Origin: a virus
IMG/VR virus record: IMGVR_UViG_3300025687_000419
Location: 1 to 20,857 of that record
Strand: one strand, 5' to 3'
DNA length: 20,857 bases
Below the pieces are notes generated by a model, which was given only the letters and a program-made list of their open reading frames with translations, made no database searches and had not been told where the DNA came from. The stretch's first letter is position 1; every line of letters begins with the position of its first letter. Shown here piece after piece: positions 4,757 through 20,028 of this stretch. Position numbers and translations under genes: made by a program.

Positions 4757-5817
4757 TATCTTGTGTACACGCCAATGTTCGGCGCAAAGTAGATGGGCGA
4801 CTTGTCGCGCTCTTCCTGCTCGGCTTGATGCAGGTACTTTTCGGCCTGTTGCTCGAGGTACTGAATCCTCGTAACATCCACGCCGGGCAACTCCAAAGCC
4901 ATTCGGTGAGAAAGCATCATCAAGACGGCTTCGTACCAGCGACCAGGCACCGCAATCTCGTTCGTTAACGCCCCGACATCCTCGATCTGCCGTGAGTACC
5001 AGACCGTCATCTGTACGAACGTATCAGACGGTACCGGCCATAAGTACATGGAAGGTTGCGGAATTGTGCGATCAAACCAGTACTGAAACGGTTGATTGGC
5101 AGTAAAGTTCTTGTTCGGCAGGTTCGTGTAGTCGTCACGGTTGAGCCTCGCCATAGTGATTTCGGTGGAGTTGTTGCCAAAGAAAAGCTCACGCAAGGAA
5201 AGCGTAGTGCCGCCTGTGGCTCGGATACGGTAATACTGCGCCGTTACGCCGGGGTCGATGTCATGCCAGATCCACTCGTTATCCACCCAGACTTCTGCGC
5301 CTGGACTGTAAAGCGTCTGCCATGTCGAGCCGTCATAACTGTACTCGTAGACCACCGTGTTGTTGCCGCTTACCGCAGGCAGAATGCCGATTGATCCAAT
5401 GTAGATAGGGTTGTTCGTGCCGTAATTGACTGAGATATTACCGTTCGTCGATGTCTGGGTGCAGACCGTATCAATGTCGCCGTCAAAGGCATTGGCCACG
5501 TTACCGCCTGCTGATGTAGCGTAGTCACCCGTTGGGCGGTTCATGCGCCGATAAAGTGCCTGCAGAACGTCATTGGACCCTGCCGGTAGTGTGTAGATGT
5601 ACTGGTTCTCTTTAAGACCGAAGACCTTCTTGTCGATCGCAAAGTACTGAATGCCGATATTGATCAGCGTCGATAAGAGGATGTGAAGCGAGGATCGAGC
5701 GGTTGCGACCTGCTCAGAGGTCAGTTCCTCGGCCAGCTTACCTGCTCTGCGAGCGCCCTTATCAATAAACTCTTGGACGTTAATTACGGTCGTGCCGTAG
5801 GTTCCTGAAGTTGCCAT
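4756..5817 (-). CDS. gp4-like head-to-tail adaptor with inserted discoidin-like domain
   Basis: A 353-aa protein. Residues 1-95 and 218-353 together resemble the P22 gp4 / T7 gp11-type neck adaptors: an N-terminal helical bundle (INVQEFIDKGARRAGKLAEE ... SSLHILLSTLIN) with an IYTLPAGSNDVLQALYRRMN strand-helix region. Later come MARLNRDDYTNLPNK, PSMYLWPVP and a C-terminal helical part (RWYEAVLMMLSHRMALELPG). These proteins attach below the portal and retain packaged DNA. Between them, residues about 98-215 form a separate beta-rich domain (ANAFDGDIDTVCTQ ... YEYSYDGSTWQTLY ... YYRIRATGG...LSLRELFFG), the signature of an F5/8 type C (discoidin, galactose-binding-like) fold. The start is immediately after the TAA of the 83-aa gene (TAAATG). 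Confidence 0.82.
   Translation of the reverse strand: MATSGTYGTTVINVQEFIDKGARRAGKLAEELTSEQVATARSSLHILLSTLINIGIQYFAIDKKVFGLKENQYIYTLPAGSNDVLQALYRRMNRPTGDYATSAGGNVANAFDGDIDTVCTQTSTNGNISVNYGTNNPIYIGSIGILPAVSGNNTVVYEYSYDGSTWQTLYSPGAEVWVDNEWIWHDIDPGVTAQYYRIRATGGTTLSLRELFFGNNSTEITMARLNRDDYTNLPNKNFTANQPFQYWFDRTIPQPSMYLWPVPSDTFVQMTVWYSRQIEDVGALTNEIAVPGRWYEAVLMMLSHRMALELPGVDVTRIQYLEQQAEKYLHQAEQEERDKSPIYFAPNIGVYTR
5173..5526 (-). other. F5/8 type C (discoidin)-like domain within the adaptor
   Basis: Residues about 98-215 of the adaptor. Diagnostic elements are A-N-A-F-D-G-D-x-D-T at the start, the YEYSYDGSTW strand-turn, and the closing RIRATGG...SLRELFFG. Such domains usually bind glycans or other surface ligands. 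Here it interrupts a neck protein rather than ending a fibre. Confidence 0.72.
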
Positions 5818-6069
5818 TTACCACCCCGGACAGTTCCAACGTTTCATTGATGCTCGGGCGCGGCTTCCTTTCTCGCTTTTCTCAGCGACAGGACCCATGC
5901 GAGCGCAGAACGAATCCCTTCGCTTGCCACCCTGAGGTTGCGGAGCTTTAAGATCCGATCCCGTCTCTCGGTTGTACTTGGCTCGACCTTTAGAGGTCAG
6001 TCCAGCACCCTGAGAGGCAGGTAACTTCTCGCCTCGACCAATGGCAAGACTCACGCCACCCTTTGCCAT
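5818..6069 (-). CDS. Short basic virion-associated protein, 83 aa
   Basis: A strongly basic protein that begins MAKGG, the KGG box seen in several other products here. Recognisable stretches are RGEKLPASQGAGLTSKGRAKYN (about residues 12-33), SDLKAPQPQGGKRRDSFCARM (38-58) and the tryptophan-containing end ASMKRWNCPGW. I have the impression that this pattern recurs as a stand-alone small protein in many aquatic phages, without assigned function. It lies 2 nt after the 262-aa gene and abuts the adaptor gene. Two cysteines (C55, C80) are far apart and do not make an obvious metal site. A nucleic-acid-binding or internal virion role would fit the charge but is inference. Confidence 0.75.
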   Translation of the reverse strand: MAKGGVSLAIGRGEKLPASQGAGLTSKGRAKYNRETGSDLKAPQPQGGKRRDSFCARMGPVAEKSEKGSRARASMKRWNCPGW

Positions 6070-6903: not shown

Positions 6904-7974
6904 TTAGCAAGGACGGCGCATTGCCCCGCCACGTTTTGCTGGGGTGACTGTCACAGACTTTTCAGTCTCAGTTACCGATCCGATTTTAGGAGTCATTAAC
7001 GCCCCACCCTTTGCGTACTTCTCGTTGCTATCGGCTTTGGCAGCCTTCATCGCGGGAGCGTTTTCCTTCTTGAACATCTTCTGCAGGCGACCTTCAGCAG
7101 GCGTAACCTTGCCACCCTTCTTGTAGGTTCCTGCCAGTTGCCTGACATAAACCGGAGAGGGTGCAGGCTTTCTGCCCTGCGGCATGGCTACGGGAGCGCC
7201 GCTATCATCAACATTTCCCGTAGCCTTTGGCTTTTTTACACCACCGCCGTCCTTGTAACCACCCTGACCTTTGACGACACCACCGGTCTTGTAACCACCG
7301 GCGTTACCCATCTTCACACCACCGGTTTTAGCCGGGGAGTTGTCGGGATGAGCAGTGTTCATCTCAGTCGTTTTGTTGGACTTGGTCTTGATGACATTGC
7401 CGCGGTCCGAATACTCCTCGTAGGAGCTTCCGCCTTTGGCCATCTTGACTTCGCCGCCCTTCTTGTAACCGCCTTGACCCATGACAACACCGCCGGTCTT
7501 TAGGCCTTTGTGGGCCTTAGATGCGGCTTTGTCTTCATGCTTCATCAGTTTGGCTTTGACGCGACCAATCTCTTCAGATTCATTACGAATCTCTTTGTTG
7601 AGCTTGGACATCTTGCCGCCCTTTTTCATCATGGGCATTTGCTTCTCGGGCATCATTGCAGGAGCGGTTGCCTCAGCCATACGAGCGGCATCACCCACCG
7701 GAGCGGCAGGACCGGCACCAGTAGGCATACCACGCATGGCACGCCGACGAGCCATCAGAGATGGGCGCATCGGGCGCTTAGCAGGCATCATTCCACCACG
7801 GGCAGGCATCATCCCTTCACGGGCTGACATAGGAAGAGAGTCTTGTGCAGACATGGAGTCCATTGCTGGACCCCCTTGTTGCATCTTCTTCTCGACTTTC
7901 CCGCCCTTTTTGAGCTTCAGTTCGACTGAAGGCTCGGTGGTCATCATTTTGACCATGGGTTTAAATCCGGGCAT
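6904..7974 (-). CDS. Basic low-complexity protein with KxGG repeat array, 356 aa
   Basis: A highly basic, probably disordered protein. At least ten K-K/T/D/R/A-G-G boxes are scattered through it, including KKGGKV (22-27), KKGG (117-120), KTGGVV (159-164), YKKGGEV (170-176), KTGGVV (229-234), KKGGKV (285-290), AKGGAL (321-326) and the C-terminal KRGGAMRRPC. A methionine/proline-rich stretch at 54-116 repeats GMMPA. Residues 125-157 look helical. An AGGAGG SD precedes the ATG. It lies between the capsid-associated 343-aa protein and the structural block. Similar KGG boxes occur in four products of this operon. A DNA-condensing or internal virion role is plausible from charge and position. No enzymatic motif is visible. 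Confidence 0.75.
   Translation of the reverse strand: MPGFKPMVKMMTTEPSVELKLKKGGKVEKKMQQGGPAMDSMSAQDSLPMSAREGMMPARGGMMPAKRPMRPSLMARRRAMRGMPTGAGPAAPVGDAARMAEATAPAMMPEKQMPMMKKGGKMSKLNKEIRNESEEIGRVKAKLMKHEDKAASKAHKGLKTGGVVMGQGGYKKGGEVKMAKGGSSYEEYSDRGNVIKTKSNKTTEMNTAHPDNSPAKTGGVKMGNAGGYKTGGVVKGQGGYKDGGGVKKPKATGNVDDSGAPVAMPQGRKPAPSPVYVRQLAGTYKKGGKVTPAEGRLQKMFKKENAPAMKAAKADSNEKYAKGGALMTPKIGSVTETEKSVTVTPAKRGGAMRRPC
7243..7500 (-). repeat. Densest part of the KxGG repeat array
   Basis: Codes for residues 159-244 of the basic protein. The phrase K-T-G-G-V-V followed by a G-Q-G-G-Y-K-x-G-G unit occurs twice (159-174 and 229-244), and a third K-T-G-G-V-K copy (216-221) is followed by A-G-G-Y-K-T-G-G. 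Tandem copying with later divergence is the simplest explanation. Confidence 0.75.
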
Positions 7975-11137: not shown

Positions 11138-12091
11138 TTAGCTCCTAGAGTTTCTTGCTTCAGTTGCGTACCGTTTGATCATTTTGTTGCGTTTGTCTGG
11201 GTCATCCCAGAATCCCGCATCTTTCATCGCACGGACTTGTTCAGGGCTTAACGTGAAGGTGTTTCTACCGCTAGCACCCCCGGTCTCCCTTTCCGAACTG
11301 GTTACAAAACTCTTTGGCCTCCTTCCGGATGTTTCTCGTCTTGTCCGATTGTATAAGTGCGGTAGCCGCTTTTGCAAGCGTTCATCCAATTCATCCCAAT
11401 AATCGGGTGATGCCGGGTTATACCCCTCTTCTGTAAGACGCTCGTCAACCAGTTTGGCAATGGCGGTGTCTTCATCATTTTTAGCGGGGTCGTACCAAGA
11501 GTTCCTGCTCATCCACTCTTTGGCGTGCGCCTGAACCTTTGGGTTAATTGGATTGTTTTGTTGCGTTGCCGTATCCGTCATACGTTTTTTGAGGGTTTGT
11601 ATTGCCTCAACACGCTTACGGGCTTCATAGAGCATGTCCTGCGCCTTGATCATGGCGTCACCGTCACCTGCCTCGGTTGCCTGTTTGATCTTGGTCAGGG
11701 CGTACTGCATTCTTGCCTGCTCGTTATCCAAAGCCGAGTCAACCCGTGCAATGTCTGAGCTATGGGTCTTGCGCTCAACCACCGACAGGCGTTGCATCAG
11801 GTCTTCGTTTTGTTGCTGCAGGAACACCAGACGTTGATCTTTTTCCTGATTGGTCTTGCGGATCATGTCCTTTTTGGCTCTGCGGCGTGCTCTGCGAGCC
11901 TCGCGGATCGCCTCAGTGTCATCGGGTCGATCTGTGTCGTCGTCGTCTGAATGCGCCTCAACTTGGGTTTCCTGCTCCTCTTGGCTGTCATCTTCCTCAA
12001 CTTGAGGATTCTCAACGCCTTCGGGCAGCTCTGCCGTGACGGAGCCGTCTTGCTCCTCTCGGACTTGAATTTCTTCTTCTTTCTCGCTCAT
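11138..12091 (-). CDS. Probable scaffolding protein, 317 aa
   Basis: Residues 1-60 are extremely acidic (runs of Glu and a DDDDTDRPDD stretch). A basic segment, IREARRARRRAKKD (62-75), follows. Residues about 80-175 are a long coiled-coil helix region (KDQRLVFLQQQNEDLMQRLSVVERK; ALTKIKQATEAGDGDAMIKA). A second conserved part (189-245) contains AKEWMSRNSWYDPAKNDEDTAI and NPASPDYWDELDERLQKRLPH, and the C-terminus is basic. Coiled-coil, charged, basic-ended proteins between portal and capsid genes are the usual scaffolds, which nucleate the procapsid through a basic C-terminal capsid contact. The ATG overlaps the GroES stop by 4 nt (ATGA). Confidence 0.8.
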   Translation of the reverse strand: MSEKEEEIQVREEQDGSVTAELPEGVENPQVEEDDSQEEQETQVEAHSDDDDTDRPDDTEAIREARRARRRAKKDMIRKTNQEKDQRLVFLQQQNEDLMQRLSVVERKTHSSDIARVDSALDNEQARMQYALTKIKQATEAGDGDAMIKAQDMLYEARKRVEAIQTLKKRMTDTATQQNNPINPKVQAHAKEWMSRNSWYDPAKNDEDTAIAKLVDERLTEEGYNPASPDYWDELDERLQKRLPHLYNRTRRETSGRRPKSFVTSSERETGGASGRNTFTLSPEQVRAMKDAGFWDDPDKRNKMIKRYATEARNSRS

Positions 12092-12522
12092 AGGAAGGCC
12101 CTCATCGCTAATGGATCACCAGTAACTTTTGCAATGACTTCGTGGTCGTTAAGGATCATGAACAGGGCTGAGTCTTCTTCATCTTGACCCGGCACCGGCA
12201 CTTCCCATCGATCACCGCCATACTTAGGAACACGCAAATAGTCACCTATTTCGCACCACGAACCCTCAGGCCATGCCTGCATCGTGTCACGGTGTTTAAA
12301 CGCCAGAGGTCCAATTGCAACGACCTTGGCCACCATGTTGTTCCACTTTTCGGTTTCTTTGGTTTCTTCAACCAAAATGATTCCCGCGCTGGTTGTCCTC
12401 TTTTTGGTTCGCCGTAACTGAACCAAGATTCTGCCTCCCAGAGGCTTCGCACCGGGGTCCACGCTCGGAAATGCCCAAGCCAATTCAGCTTCGCCAGAAG
12501 CTACCGGTTCATTCATCTTCAT
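12088..12522 (-). CDS. groES: GroES-like co-chaperonin (Cpn10)
   Basis: Landmarks of Cpn10 appear in order: PLGGRILVQL (27-36; host P-x-x-D-R-V-L-V region), a flexible segment followed by SAGIILVEETKE (45-56; the GroEL-binding mobile loop and the strand after it), VAKVVAIGP (64-72), IGDYLRVPKYGG (92-103) and FMILNDHEVIAKV (121-133). Cellular GroES is about 95 aa. This protein has about 25 extra N-terminal residues and an insertion around 73-90. A ring of seven would cap host GroEL and alter its chamber; T4 gp31 does this for its capsid protein. Placement between portal and scaffold suggests the client is a virion protein. AAGGA lies five bases before the chosen ATG; a second ATG two codons later is possible. 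Confidence 0.88.
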   Translation of the reverse strand: MKMNEPVASGEAELAWAFPSVDPGAKPLGGRILVQLRRTKKRTTSAGIILVEETKETEKWNNMVAKVVAIGPLAFKHRDTMQAWPEGSWCEIGDYLRVPKYGGDRWEVPVPGQDEEDSALFMILNDHEVIAKVTGDPLAMRAFL

Positions 12523-15373: not shown

Positions 15374-15385
15374 TTTGTGTCCTTA

Positions 15386-17305
15386 TTAACTGAGTACGGC
15401 GGCGAGAGCGCCCTTACGAACGGCTCCGCCCTTCTTTTTCTCGGTGCGATAGTCAGGCATTCCTTCTTTTTTATAATATGGCATCAACACACCCTCGCCT
15501 GTTTCAATCATGTCAAGAATGTAATTGCGAATGTTTCGTGGTGTTGGGGTGGTGCCTAACCCTTGAAGGGTGTATGCCGTTTGTTTTTCAAACAAATCCA
15601 ATGCATCACCTCGTGGAGACTTTAACCCGGTAAGTTCACCACCACCAAACCACCGCCCTGCTTGCGCCATACCGCCGGGTATACCCATCTCTTCGGCAAT
15701 TTGAAGCATTTGACTTTCTGCTGGTCCATATTCGGGGGGTGCAAACCCGCCCTGTTTTGAGAAGTAAGGATGGAAACGACTTCCCCTTGTTTCGCCAGCG
15801 GCTTCGTGAACATCAAGCACAACAGACTTGCCAAAATCCCCGGCTTTTTGAGTGCCGTAAGTTGGAATTTTGTAATTTGTTGGGATGTTTGCTTTTGATA
15901 ATTCGCGCAAGTCTTGATTGCCCTCGAGCACTGATTTAACGCCCTCTCGATGCACCGGCATCAAAGACAAGCCTTTCCCATACTTTGCTTTAAAAGCGTC
16001 CATTTCTTTTCTTACAGTTTTATCGTCCATTGGTATGCCACGCGCATTCATGTCACGCAAAAATTGGCCAACGGCCATTTCATTCATGATTGAGTTGCGA
16101 GCAGACGCCGGCGCTATGGAGTAAATAAACTGATTGAACTGCTCTTCAGGAATGCCGCGCTCTAATGCCGCAAGTTTGAGCGGATACAGAGATGCATAAA
16201 ACGTCTCGCCACCCAATGGGAGACCACGTTCAATTTGTCCCTTAATGAGGGATCGGTTAACCGGATCTTGATAAATCTCCTCCATTACTGACAATGCGCC
16301 TGATCGTGGCGCTTCGTAGCGGGGAAACCTTGACTGTTCGATGCCTGGGAAACCTTCCAACGCATCCTTAATGCGCTCTCTGTCAAAGGCCTGTAATTCT
16401 TTGCGAGGTGGCTGCCACGGCTCTGTGGGTTGTTTTAAAAAGTCTTGTGTTTTTTGAATTCGACGTTGGACAACCTCAGGAACGTTTTGCATCTTTTGCA
16501 TCTTTGATGCTGAAGATGGAGCCTTAACTAGTTCTCCAAACTCTTTTTCTAGTGCAGGTTTTTGTCCTCGTTCCCATTGGAGTTTTTGTGCCGCTAAGCG
16601 TTCAGATCTCTGCTTGATCGCTTCGTCCGTTAGTTTGGGGTTCTGTTTGCGTAATTGATCTGCAATTCGAGATGCGGTGCTTTCTAACACCTTCGGTGAA
16701 TACAAAGGCGCATCTTTTTTGGCCGCCTTCACCGCCTCCTGAGCCTTTTCAATGCCAGTCAACGCAGATTTAATTGGACCGCCTCTAGCCATTTGCAACA
16801 TACGTTCTTGCGACTTTAATCCAAGAGGATCGTATGGGAACATATCAGGGCGATTTGCGTCGATGGTCGGCTTTTGTATCTCAATGAACTCGCGCAGACG
16901 ATCTGTTGACGGGGCATTGATGTCGCTGGGCCGATAACCGCCCGTATCCGTTCTGCCGAACTGGCTTGCAATGTCGTACTCAGAGAAAAAAGGAAGAAGT
17001 TTTTGAACATCAGCCTCTGACGCACGACCCATGCGATACATTTCTAACGTCTGATTTAATTTTTCATTGATATCTTGCATGGGCTGACGAATTGCAGAAT
17101 AAAACTCTGAACCACCACTTTCCTCAAACCGACGATTTTCTTCTTCAAGTTCACGTTGCAGCTTTCGGTTGAACTCTTCTAACTTATCCGGCGATGATGT
17201 AGGCGTACCAACACCACTCTTAGCGTTACCACCTGCGGCAAACTTTTTAGAAAGGTTACCTCTGCCAAACATCGGGATCAACATGGGGTCTACTTGGAAA
17301 GGCAC
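15386..17305 (-). CDS. Large virion-associated candidate with KGG boxes, 639 aa
   Basis: Starts with GTG at 17305, supported by AAGGAGG six bases upstream; an ATG seven codons in is a weaker alternative. Residues 11-26 (PMFGRGNLSKKFAAGG) match a box in the preceding 912-aa protein. Residues 40-110 and 180-320 are charged and helical. A folded C-terminal domain, about 390-600, includes SIAPASARNSIMNEM, DFGKSVVLDVHEAAGETRGS, YGPAESQMLQIAEEMGIPGG and QAGRWFGGGELTGLKSPRGD. It resembles modules seen in large phage polyvalent proteins. The end, EKKKGGAVRKGALAAVLS, is another KGG tail. Position between terminase and portal and pairing with the 912-aa protein suggest an internal or ejected protein. 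Its base composition looks AT-richer than its neighbours. Function inferred only. Confidence 0.72.
   Translation of the reverse strand: MPFQVDPMLIPMFGRGNLSKKFAAGGNAKSGVGTPTSSPDKLEEFNRKLQRELEEENRRFEESGGSEFYSAIRQPMQDINEKLNQTLEMYRMGRASEADVQKLLPFFSEYDIASQFGRTDTGGYRPSDINAPSTDRLREFIEIQKPTIDANRPDMFPYDPLGLKSQERMLQMARGGPIKSALTGIEKAQEAVKAAKKDAPLYSPKVLESTASRIADQLRKQNPKLTDEAIKQRSERLAAQKLQWERGQKPALEKEFGELVKAPSSASKMQKMQNVPEVVQRRIQKTQDFLKQPTEPWQPPRKELQAFDRERIKDALEGFPGIEQSRFPRYEAPRSGALSVMEEIYQDPVNRSLIKGQIERGLPLGGETFYASLYPLKLAALERGIPEEQFNQFIYSIAPASARNSIMNEMAVGQFLRDMNARGIPMDDKTVRKEMDAFKAKYGKGLSLMPVHREGVKSVLEGNQDLRELSKANIPTNYKIPTYGTQKAGDFGKSVVLDVHEAAGETRGSRFHPYFSKQGGFAPPEYGPAESQMLQIAEEMGIPGGMAQAGRWFGGGELTGLKSPRGDALDLFEKQTAYTLQGLGTTPTPRNIRNYILDMIETGEGVLMPYYKKEGMPDYRTEKKKGGAVRKGALAAVLS
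17225..17275 (-). other. PMF-KKFA-GG box at the N-terminus of the 639-aa protein
   Basis: Residues 11-27, pattern PMFxxGxxxKKFAxGGx, matching residues 777-793 of the 912-aa protein with the same spacing. The DNA beneath the KKFAxGG half is also similar in both copies. Confidence 0.7.
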
Positions 17306-20028
17306 GCGAGGCCTCCTTTTTTCTTGAGTTGGGTGCGCTCTACTACATCACTTGGCGCAATGGCTCGTGCTCGAGTCGTGAGTAACTCTCGATTAAATTC
17401 GTCAATGGGAAGGGCAAGTCCGTACTCTTTGCCCACGAAAGGGTCAACCATCAGCATCTCTATATGAGGATCTTCGCCTCGTGTAGCCGCTCTACGGGTA
17501 GCGTAGTACTCAGCCACCTTCCTCTGGGGCGTGGTGGACAGCACAGGCTCCTCAAGCCTCTCGCCAGTGTAGCCGCGGTAGACGCCTTGAAGCATCTTCT
17601 TGCCTTCCTTGGCGGCTTCGCTTGCGCCCTTACTGATACCTTTAAGCACCTTCCCACCTGGTGCAAACTTCTTAACGGAGCCACCCTGCTTGAACATGGG
17701 CAAACCCTGAGAGAGGATGTCATTACGCATCTCCTCTGTGATGGGCATGAAGTAGACCTCGGACTCTTTCTTCTTGCCTTCGCCAAAGGGAATGGTGCGC
17801 TTCTCGAGTTGGACGCCGTAGCGCTTGCCGATCTCGTTTAAGTGCTTGGGCAGCATGTCGTCGTAGAGCTTGTCCTTGCCCTCGCCGCCAATCTTTAGGT
17901 CAAGATCGGTCATTACCTGCGAGTCGTTGGATAAGATCTTTTCGCCTACGCCCTTGCCTACAACTTCGGTGAGTGGCTTTCCAATAAACCTGTTGTACTG
18001 ACCTGCGTTGGTTTCCCAAACGAGTCCGTCCTTATCAACCGTTAGGCGCATCTGTTTTTTGTTCGCGTCATCAAGAGTAGGTTTTAAGTCAATCGTGACA
18101 TGCTTGAACGGGCCTCCGGGTGCTGGGGTGTACAACTCGACGGTGTAATCGTCGGTGTACGACTCAATGCGGTCAACCACGTTGGCCAAGTTGTATCGAT
18201 CCTTAACGATTTCGCCGACGGGAAAGCCGATGCCACCTTTACCCTCTTTAGCGGCCTTCACGAGGAAATTGTTGATGACGGGCTTGTACCAGTTACCGCG
18301 GAATGGATTGTCGGGGACGCCGGGTGCATTTTTGCCAAGCTGGGCGACCCTTTCGGCGGCCTCTCTATCGTATCCACCAGAAAAAGTGCCGTCATCCCAC
18401 TGCACCTTCCATGACGATAAACCTCCCGGTATATCTTCCTGTTTGACCGCCTTGCCTTTTATCAATTCATTTTTAGTTCGATAACCCTGCTTTGCCCCAG
18501 CAATCGCCCAGTCGGACTGGATCTCTTCTGCAAAGAGTGTCGGCGTACCGTCAATAGTGCGGTCGGTTGCACGGATGGAGCCAAAGGTATTCTCTGCGTT
18601 GGGGAAGTGTCCGTCGGGTGGTCTAAACACGCCCTCAACCTTGTCATCCGGTAGCTTATAAAGGATCTCGCGGTAGTTCTGGCCGCCAGGGATCTGATAA
18701 TCACCCTCAAAGTTAGTGGCACCATTAAATTCTGGAAAGTCCCCAAGCTCGTTATCAATCTTGTCGATCTCAGCCTCACGCCACTCAAACCTTTTAGATG
18801 CTGGTATGTATCGCAACTCTCCAGTATTACTGTCCCTTGCGTAGAAGCTCCCCGTGTTGTCAGCCTCTGCCTCGAGGTCGTCAAAGTGACGGTCAAGGGT
18901 ACGAATCAAGTGGTTCCGCAGGTGCGCCTTGTCTTCAAACTCTTCTGCAAGGTCTTCTTTGCCCAACCAATCAAACTGCCTAGGTAGGTATTGAATGACT
19001 TCCTTATCAATACGACCAGCACCAGCGATCCGCTCGTCCTCAATCAACTGCAGGCGGTTGGTCTCGAGGTAGTCCTGCACCTCCTGCTTTGTCACCTTCG
19101 GGGTGTTCTTTAGGTACTCATCCAACCCGGTGACCTTGATCTCTGCCTGAGGCACGCCCTTCATCTTGCTCAACTGGGCTAGGAACTGGGGGCCGGTACC
19201 CTTGTCCTGTAACTTATCTACACCCTCTGAGAGGCGTGATGAGAACCCGAGTGTATCCAGACTGATAGCGCCTACCGGGGGTGTCTCGAAGTACTCCTTG
19301 GTTGCCTGCGTTGCCTTCTGGGTAAGCGGCAGCAGGTCGTCACGAATGGCAAGGCGAGCGGCTTGACCGGCTGACTGAATGGCAGGCTTAACGACCGGTG
19401 CGACATCACGAGCGCCACGGATGCCCATCTCAAGAAGGTCGTCAATCTTTGAGATGTTCTTGATACCCGGCATGAACATCAAGGCATCGAGCTTAGATTC
19501 TTCATAAGCCCTCATAGGAGATTCGAGTGCGTCTCCTACCGTTTTAAAGCCCTCTAAACTCTTGTCTATGTACCGACCGTAGAAGGCACGCTCGCGCTCT
19601 TCCTCGGGCGTTAATGCGGCCTGATCTTTCTTTAGAAACTCAGGCAGGTAGATGTTGCGTTGCATAATCGCCTCGGGATCCATCCCAAAGGCTTCACCGA
19701 CCATTCCCTTGATGCCAGCGCCTGCGCCTGAGCCGATGGTGCCAATCGCCTTGATGGCAGCCGTAATGTCGTCAGGGATAAACTCAAAGCGAGCCATCTG
19801 ACCAAGTGTTTTCTGGCCGTACTTGGCTTGGAACGCGGCCTCTTCCTGCTCTTTACGCCTGCGCTCAGAGTCTGCAATGCGCTCACGCATCTTCAGCGGA
19901 TCAGTAGGCTCTTGAAGTCGGGGTTTCTCAAACACATCAGGATACCGCGACGCTAGCCCTTTGATCTGCTCTCCGGGCTGGGTGCTCATGAGTTCGTTGA
20001 ATAGGCGGATCTGTTCTTCGTCAGTCAT
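17290..20028 (-). CDS. Large polyvalent-type protein with C-terminal ART-like domain, 912 aa
   Basis: Residues 40-70 are charged helix and 84-125 contain a Gly/Ala-rich stretch (IKAIGTIGSGAGAGIKGMVG). Residues 440-780 form a core with FAEEIQSDWAIAGAKQGY (499-516), NPFRGNWYKPVINNFLVKAAKEGKGGIGFP (574-603), YDDMLPKHLNEIGKRYG (722-738) and YFMPITEEMRNDILSQGLPMF (759-779), a combination typical of large polyvalent phage proteins. A KGG-rich hinge (777-810) leads to residues 815-897, which resemble ADP-ribosyltransferase domains: GVYRGY with a conserved-looking Arg, VLSTTPQRKVAEYYA, IEMLMVDP and acidic DEFNRE. ARTs modify host proteins; here the activity is inferred. AAGGAGG precedes the ATG. Lies 45 nt after terminase. 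Likely packaged or injected, not proven. Confidence 0.75.
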   Translation of the reverse strand: MTDEEQIRLFNELMSTQPGEQIKGLASRYPDVFEKPRLQEPTDPLKMRERIADSERRRKEQEEAAFQAKYGQKTLGQMARFEFIPDDITAAIKAIGTIGSGAGAGIKGMVGEAFGMDPEAIMQRNIYLPEFLKKDQAALTPEEERERAFYGRYIDKSLEGFKTVGDALESPMRAYEESKLDALMFMPGIKNISKIDDLLEMGIRGARDVAPVVKPAIQSAGQAARLAIRDDLLPLTQKATQATKEYFETPPVGAISLDTLGFSSRLSEGVDKLQDKGTGPQFLAQLSKMKGVPQAEIKVTGLDEYLKNTPKVTKQEVQDYLETNRLQLIEDERIAGAGRIDKEVIQYLPRQFDWLGKEDLAEEFEDKAHLRNHLIRTLDRHFDDLEAEADNTGSFYARDSNTGELRYIPASKRFEWREAEIDKIDNELGDFPEFNGATNFEGDYQIPGGQNYREILYKLPDDKVEGVFRPPDGHFPNAENTFGSIRATDRTIDGTPTLFAEEIQSDWAIAGAKQGYRTKNELIKGKAVKQEDIPGGLSSWKVQWDDGTFSGGYDREAAERVAQLGKNAPGVPDNPFRGNWYKPVINNFLVKAAKEGKGGIGFPVGEIVKDRYNLANVVDRIESYTDDYTVELYTPAPGGPFKHVTIDLKPTLDDANKKQMRLTVDKDGLVWETNAGQYNRFIGKPLTEVVGKGVGEKILSNDSQVMTDLDLKIGGEGKDKLYDDMLPKHLNEIGKRYGVQLEKRTIPFGEGKKKESEVYFMPITEEMRNDILSQGLPMFKQGGSVKKFAPGGKVLKGISKGASEAAKEGKKMLQGVYRGYTGERLEEPVLSTTPQRKVAEYYATRRAATRGEDPHIEMLMVDPFVGKEYGLALPIDEFNRELLTTRARAIAPSDVVERTQLKKKGGLACLSK
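17306..17320 (-). promoter_or_regulatory. Ribosome binding site deciding the GTG start of the 639-aa gene
   Basis: AAAAGGAGGC in transcript sense, with six bases between AGGAGG and the GTG. The same bases are the lysine and Gly-Gly codons of the KKKGG tail of the 912-aa protein, so a protein motif and an SD share the DNA. Confidence 0.75.
17338..17586 (-). other. ADP-ribosyltransferase-like domain
   Basis: Residues about 815-897 of the 912-aa protein. It has the order Arg (VYRGY), Ser-Thr-Thr (VLSTTPQRKVAEYYATRRA) and a later acidic strand (PIDEFNRELL), consistent with the R-S-E ART class. The last Glu is only tentatively assigned and the domain is short, so it may be degenerate or have another role. 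Confidence 0.5.
17650..17700 (-). other. PMF-KKFA-GG box near the C-terminus of the 912-aa protein
   Basis: Residues 777-793, PMFKQGGSVKKFAPGGK. It joins the polyvalent core to the ART-like domain and is the partner of the box at 17225-17275. Confidence 0.7.

Follow-up and report, generated by a model that had tools for sequence, protein, structure and literature searches.

A virus-specific, glycine-flanked KKFA motif at the joints of modular phage proteins

We found that a short glycine-flanked motif with a KKFA core, encoded twice in neighbouring genes of a virus genome, is virus-specific, is enriched in large modular proteins, lies at the joints between their modules and contains the breakpoint of one clean cargo swap. 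The stretch analysed (hereafter the window) is the linear IMG/VR record IMGVR_UViG_3300025687_000419, 20.9 kb (20,857 nt), whose minus strand encodes, in order, terminase, a 912-amino-acid (aa) protein, a 639-aa protein, portal, GroES, a scaffold-like protein, capsid and further structural proteins. Our best explanation, a tentative one drawn from the sequences, is that the phage-specific linear motif GG-x-V-(x0-2)-[K/R]-[F/M/Y]-A-x-GG is a docking joint of modular virion-type proteins.

Two boxes and an exchanged cargo module

The initial annotation had described a single 16-residue box, PMFxxGxxxKKFAxGG, in two adjacent proteins of virion type. The minus strand does encode both copies, in genes that lie between terminase and portal. 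Box 1, PMFKQGGSVKKFAPGG (17653–17700), spans residues 777–792 of the 912-aa polyvalent-type protein (17290–20028, minus strand), which consists of a variable N-terminus, a conserved central domain (about residues 260–779), the box and a C-terminal module. Box 2, PMFGRGNLSKKFAAGG (17228–17275), spans residues 11–26 of the 639-aa protein (15386–17305, minus strand) and closes a 26-residue N-terminal leader (17228–17305), behind which the cargo is exchangeable; one copy thus sits between domains and the other at an N-terminus, as had been proposed. The ranges first assigned, 777–793 and 11–27, were right in position and one residue too long (17 rather than 16). The boxes are identical at 10 of 16 positions, and the likeness noted earlier between the codons for KKFAxGG holds, with 17 of 21 bases identical when counted from the sequence rather than about 18. 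The window contains exactly two matches to the encoded pattern, whereas 100 dinucleotide-preserving shuffles contained none. The best ungapped 16-residue match between the two proteins has 10 identities, compared with 6–9 in sixty shuffled pairs, so the resemblance exceeds chance but is modest for this pair by itself.

The motif is indeed shared, but it is not one 16-residue unit. Proteins related to the 912-aa protein regularly close their central domain with ITPEMR...G[L/Q]P[L/M][Y/F], and in an AlphaFold model of the 912-aa protein (21 sequences) the pLDDT stays at about 90 as far as the last helix ahead of PMF and is below 30 through GGSVKKFAPGG. We therefore read P-[M/L]-[F/Y] as the end, conserved among the relatives, of a folded domain and the GG-flanked KKFA part as a linker motif. 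The common unit is the disordered [GG-x-V]-K-[F/M/Y]-A-x-GG rather than the 16-residue box; the full 16-residue form, looked for in the window and the fetched loci, is confined to the window and one close relative. A model of the 639-aa protein gave no usable structure (mean pLDDT 42.8), and a fold search with domain A returned no significant match, only weak GNAT-like ones.

That close relative (L003/L010; contig IMGVR_UViG_3300036770_000478) has a portal 99% identical to that of the window, and its 912-type protein is identical in box and C-terminus. The product of the following gene begins with MPFQVDPMLIPMFGRGNLSQKFSTGG, after which it is a different protein of 732 residues, so that the leader MPFQVDPMLIPMFGRGNLSxKFxxGG is retained while 613–732 aa of cargo differ. 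DNA homology between the window and L010 ends at minus-strand coordinate 3617 (window 17241), within the KKFA codons, and restarts immediately beyond the stop codon, at 5478 (window 15380); on the minus strand the exchanged block is 15380–17241. At this joint the relative has a motif version of its own, as expected if relatives retain the motif. The flank there, GGKVLQGIAKGAK, resembles that of box 1, and in L003 boxes 1 and 2 have common flanking sequence.

Further boxes of this kind occur on the minus strand of the window. The 639-aa protein has a second GG box, QMARGG (residues 171–176; 16778–16795), with a Lys/Ala-rich helix behind it; the Ala and the two Gly of this box do not vary among four aligned relatives. 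Both large proteins carry a C-terminal KKKGG, at 15425–15439 in the 639-aa protein and at 17311–17325 in the 912-aa protein. A 356-aa protein (6904–7974), kept in many sister phages, consists mostly of KGG-type repeats (GGYKKGGEVKMAKGG and similar), among them KKMQQGG, GGEVKMAKGG and KYAKGG, and is possibly a hub in which this box type is repeated many times. An 83-aa DUF6321 protein (5818–6069) starts MAKGG, its start codon lying inside a box (MAKGGVSLAIG); longer homologues carry KKMKxGG immediately ahead of the same domain, and DUF6321 homologues are present in 101 of 260 box-carrying loci. The window also encodes a GroES (Cpn10) between portal and scaffold (12088–12522), which is kept in many relatives, and a 539-aa glycine-rich protein (260–1879) with two similar halves and GGGGGG-rich repeats, which is probably a tail or fibre protein.

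The motif in sister phages

A search with the portal identified 570 relatives, from which 80 loci were fetched. Where the region is intact, most sister loci encode, between terminase and portal, one or two proteins that are very large and vary strongly. Pfam matches in this sister cargo are to ART-PolyVal, PcfJ and, weakly, LPD23. We class the cargo as polyvalent-type on the basis of these domains, although the 912-aa and 639-aa proteins of the window match no Pfam family, in which they differ from described polyvalent proteins. As described by Iyer et al. 2017 (PMC5512222), polyvalent proteins occur in phages and conjugative elements and are large, multi-module, encoded near structural genes and subject to extensive domain shuffling. 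The window's two proteins are likewise large and multidomain and lie near virion genes, and in one sister locus (L082), an example of module fusion and fission, the 912-type and 639-type domains form one chain, with a KKGG...RLAIGG linker at the same joint. Virion carriage and delivery to the host are candidate properties of the window's polyvalent-type proteins. A text search of PMC5512222 turned up neither linker nor glycine, and the motif passages cited from it concern catalytic motifs, with no common joint.

Sister cargo proteins contain [KRH][FYM]xxGG in 45 distinct contexts compared with 12.8 in shuffles, and permuted and reversed forms are at chance level. The doubled form GGxV(x0-2)[KRH][FYM]xxGG occurs in 19 distinct contexts compared with 0.2, and members of the DUF6321 family and the KGG-rich 356-aa protein bear the motif as well. 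In the sisters' portal, terminase, capsid and tail proteins nothing exceeded chance (3 distinct sites compared with 5.6 in shuffles). Where cargo proteins align locally, the alignment ends lie within 10 aa of a box 3.4 times as often as random positions do (1.2–1.5 for control patterns). The initial annotation proposed testing whether boxes concentrate near protein ends, and they are enriched near N-termini, with 12 in the first 60 residues where 3.9 are expected. Seven comparable sister proteins have a leader of about 40 residues, SLKEWAxAGGxVPxxYKGREHVWxKKVxKFAxGG, that ends at the box; these leaders are 40–65% identical, and the cargo behind them is unrelated in 17 of 21 pairs. In the 80 sister loci the motif is found at module joints and behind N-terminal leaders.

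These leaders raise the possibility that leader and box together act as an N-terminal signal by which variable cargo is packaged in the head, by analogy with T4 internal proteins and P1 DarB. A short N-terminal sequence does precede otherwise unrelated cargo, both in the 639-aa protein and its counterpart in L003 and in the sister leaders, and the N-terminal enrichment agrees with such a signal. For P1 DarB, fewer than 30 N-terminal residues direct the protein (PMC9024508). Unlike these capsid targeting sequences (T4 internal proteins; P1 DarB, PMC9024508), however, the core described here is also internal and C-terminal and occurs in many protein types and in unrelated phages. Boxes are mostly internal or C-terminal, and tape measure proteins, which stay out of the head interior, carry many of them. 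We consider a dedicated capsid-targeting signal rather unlikely.

The motif outside the lineage

Searches of IMG/VR, whose contigs are fragments, gave at least 119 matches for encoded GGxVKKFAxGG, 1 for the permuted control GGxVKFKAxGG, at least 120 for the Met variant and 23 for the Leu variant. An equal frequency in unrelated cellular proteins would have spoken against the initial annotation, but the pattern proved rare there: 257 Gb of bacterial and archaeal genomes contained a single match, about the chance level estimated from the information in the pattern. The GG-flanked KKFA core is a virus-specific motif. Among open-licence papers we found no description of a GG-KKFA-GG motif.

With the boxes masked, 241 carriers fell into 68 clusters, of which one, with 126 carriers, probably owes part of its size to low-complexity KGG proteins. 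The carriers that could be recognised are tape measure, DNA ejection and virion lysozyme or peptidase proteins, a head-type protein and polyvalent-type proteins; many carriers have no assigned function. In one ejection protein (L116) the ejection domain covers residues 19–309 and the box begins at 315. Genes adjoining carriers are late structural and lysis genes. Carrier loci have a structural gene in common with the window's lineage in 110 of 260 cases, and 77 of 260 have nothing in common with the window in the fetched stretch; all tape measure and DNA ejection carriers checked are among these 77. Many small phage proteins in L098–L215 end in ...GGSVSSxxxRADGCAxRGKTKGxxR behind the box, a recurrent C-terminal tail. 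One match to the 639-aa leader, in Klebsiella (E = 0.1), falls within a P2-like baseplate/tail cluster.

Third-base identity between unrelated boxes is 0.425, compared with 0.355 for neighbouring codons, which argues that conservation acts on the protein rather than on the DNA. Because this identity is barely over background, we rejected a mobile DNA element.

Among related phages with cultured hosts, Caulobacter phage RW, Roseobacter phage CRP-902 and Pelagibacter phage HTVC027P lack a KKFA/KKMA box, and some lack the cargo; the box is therefore not essential. RW, CRP-902 and Synechococcus phage MinM2 have no large cargo between terminase and portal, so the cargo at this position is accessory. 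Short-peptide tblastn against cultured phages is insensitive and overlooked a known box in MW202545, so a lack of matches by this method carries no weight.

The presence of the motif in unrelated phages bears on what might recognise it. The initial annotation suggested a portal or scaffold contact, which is unlikely because the motif also occurs in phages that, over the stretches fetched, have no gene in common with the lineage. Because unrelated phages share the motif, a partner would more probably be DNA, a membrane or a host factor than the lineage's portal or scaffold. A broader proposal is that the motif is a universal short signal in the tape measure, ejection, lysozyme and polyvalent proteins that pass through the virion and tail of unrelated phages, recognised by one of these three and needed for loading or ejection. 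In so general a form we regard this proposal as doubtful.

Linker, cleavage site or docking joint

The box might instead be a neutral, flexible Gly/Lys hinge, spread by gene duplication and recombination, that binds no partner. It is disordered and Gly-rich, modules are swapped at it, and boxes 1 and 2 have a common flank in L003; a linker that is basic and flanked by Gly could have been selected because it aids solubility or flexibility, and could have spread by descent. Against this, the core is sequence-specific, as seen in the permutation control (at least 119 matches versus 1) and the preference for Phe or Met over Leu; the motif occurs in families without other homology; and the third-base comparison indicates conservation of the protein rather than the DNA. 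We judge a purely neutral linker unlikely.

A protease that cuts after GG, removing leaders and freeing modules, would also account for GG at module joints and behind short leaders, and cleavage had been among the first suggestions for the box. The processing of P1 DarA is a precedent. Double-glycine leader peptides are similar in that a leader of 20–40 residues closes in GG, but they differ from the present case in hydrophobic spacing, in their C39 peptidase and in that the box is also internal. The box has Phe or Met five residues ahead of the putative cut, an arrangement that is not known from double-glycine or adenain sites. No known protease stands behind the box. Capsid targeting sequences of the T4 type are removed by a prohead protease; among 13 relatives we found no Peptidase_S78 prohead protease and no C39 peptidase above the cut-off, with one sub-threshold partial match to Peptidase_C39. 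This match is in a 3001-aa open frame on the contig of L028 (G002), at 23434–23550. According to PMC5512222, embedded peptidases release domains from some polyvalent proteins. However, the window's proteins contain no HExxH peptidase motif, and it occurs in only 6 of 65 sister cargo loci, whereas 48 have boxes; we rejected self-processing by embedded zincin peptidases as an explanation for the boxes in general. Cleavage at the box seems to us quite improbable.

We return to the docking joint as the reading that we prefer. The motif sits in disordered parts of large, modular proteins of virion type and marks the points where modules meet, between domains in the 912-aa protein and after the N-terminal leader in the 639-aa protein, and at these joints related phages swap whole cargo modules. 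The glycines may allow each module to fold and unfold independently, and the box would probably dock or retain proteins that are stored in the virion and leave with the genome. From the strict K-K-[F/M]-A core we infer that something recognises the box, and the joint probably has a docking role. Presence of the carriers in the virion and binding of the box by a partner are candidate properties.

How phages select the large proteins that travel inside the particle is understood in only a few model systems. A virus-specific motif in dozens of unrelated carrier families would help to predict ejected effectors in uncultivated phages. The KKFA-type motif would also provide a defined sequence to mutate, and it marks natural joints for the exchange of cargo modules.
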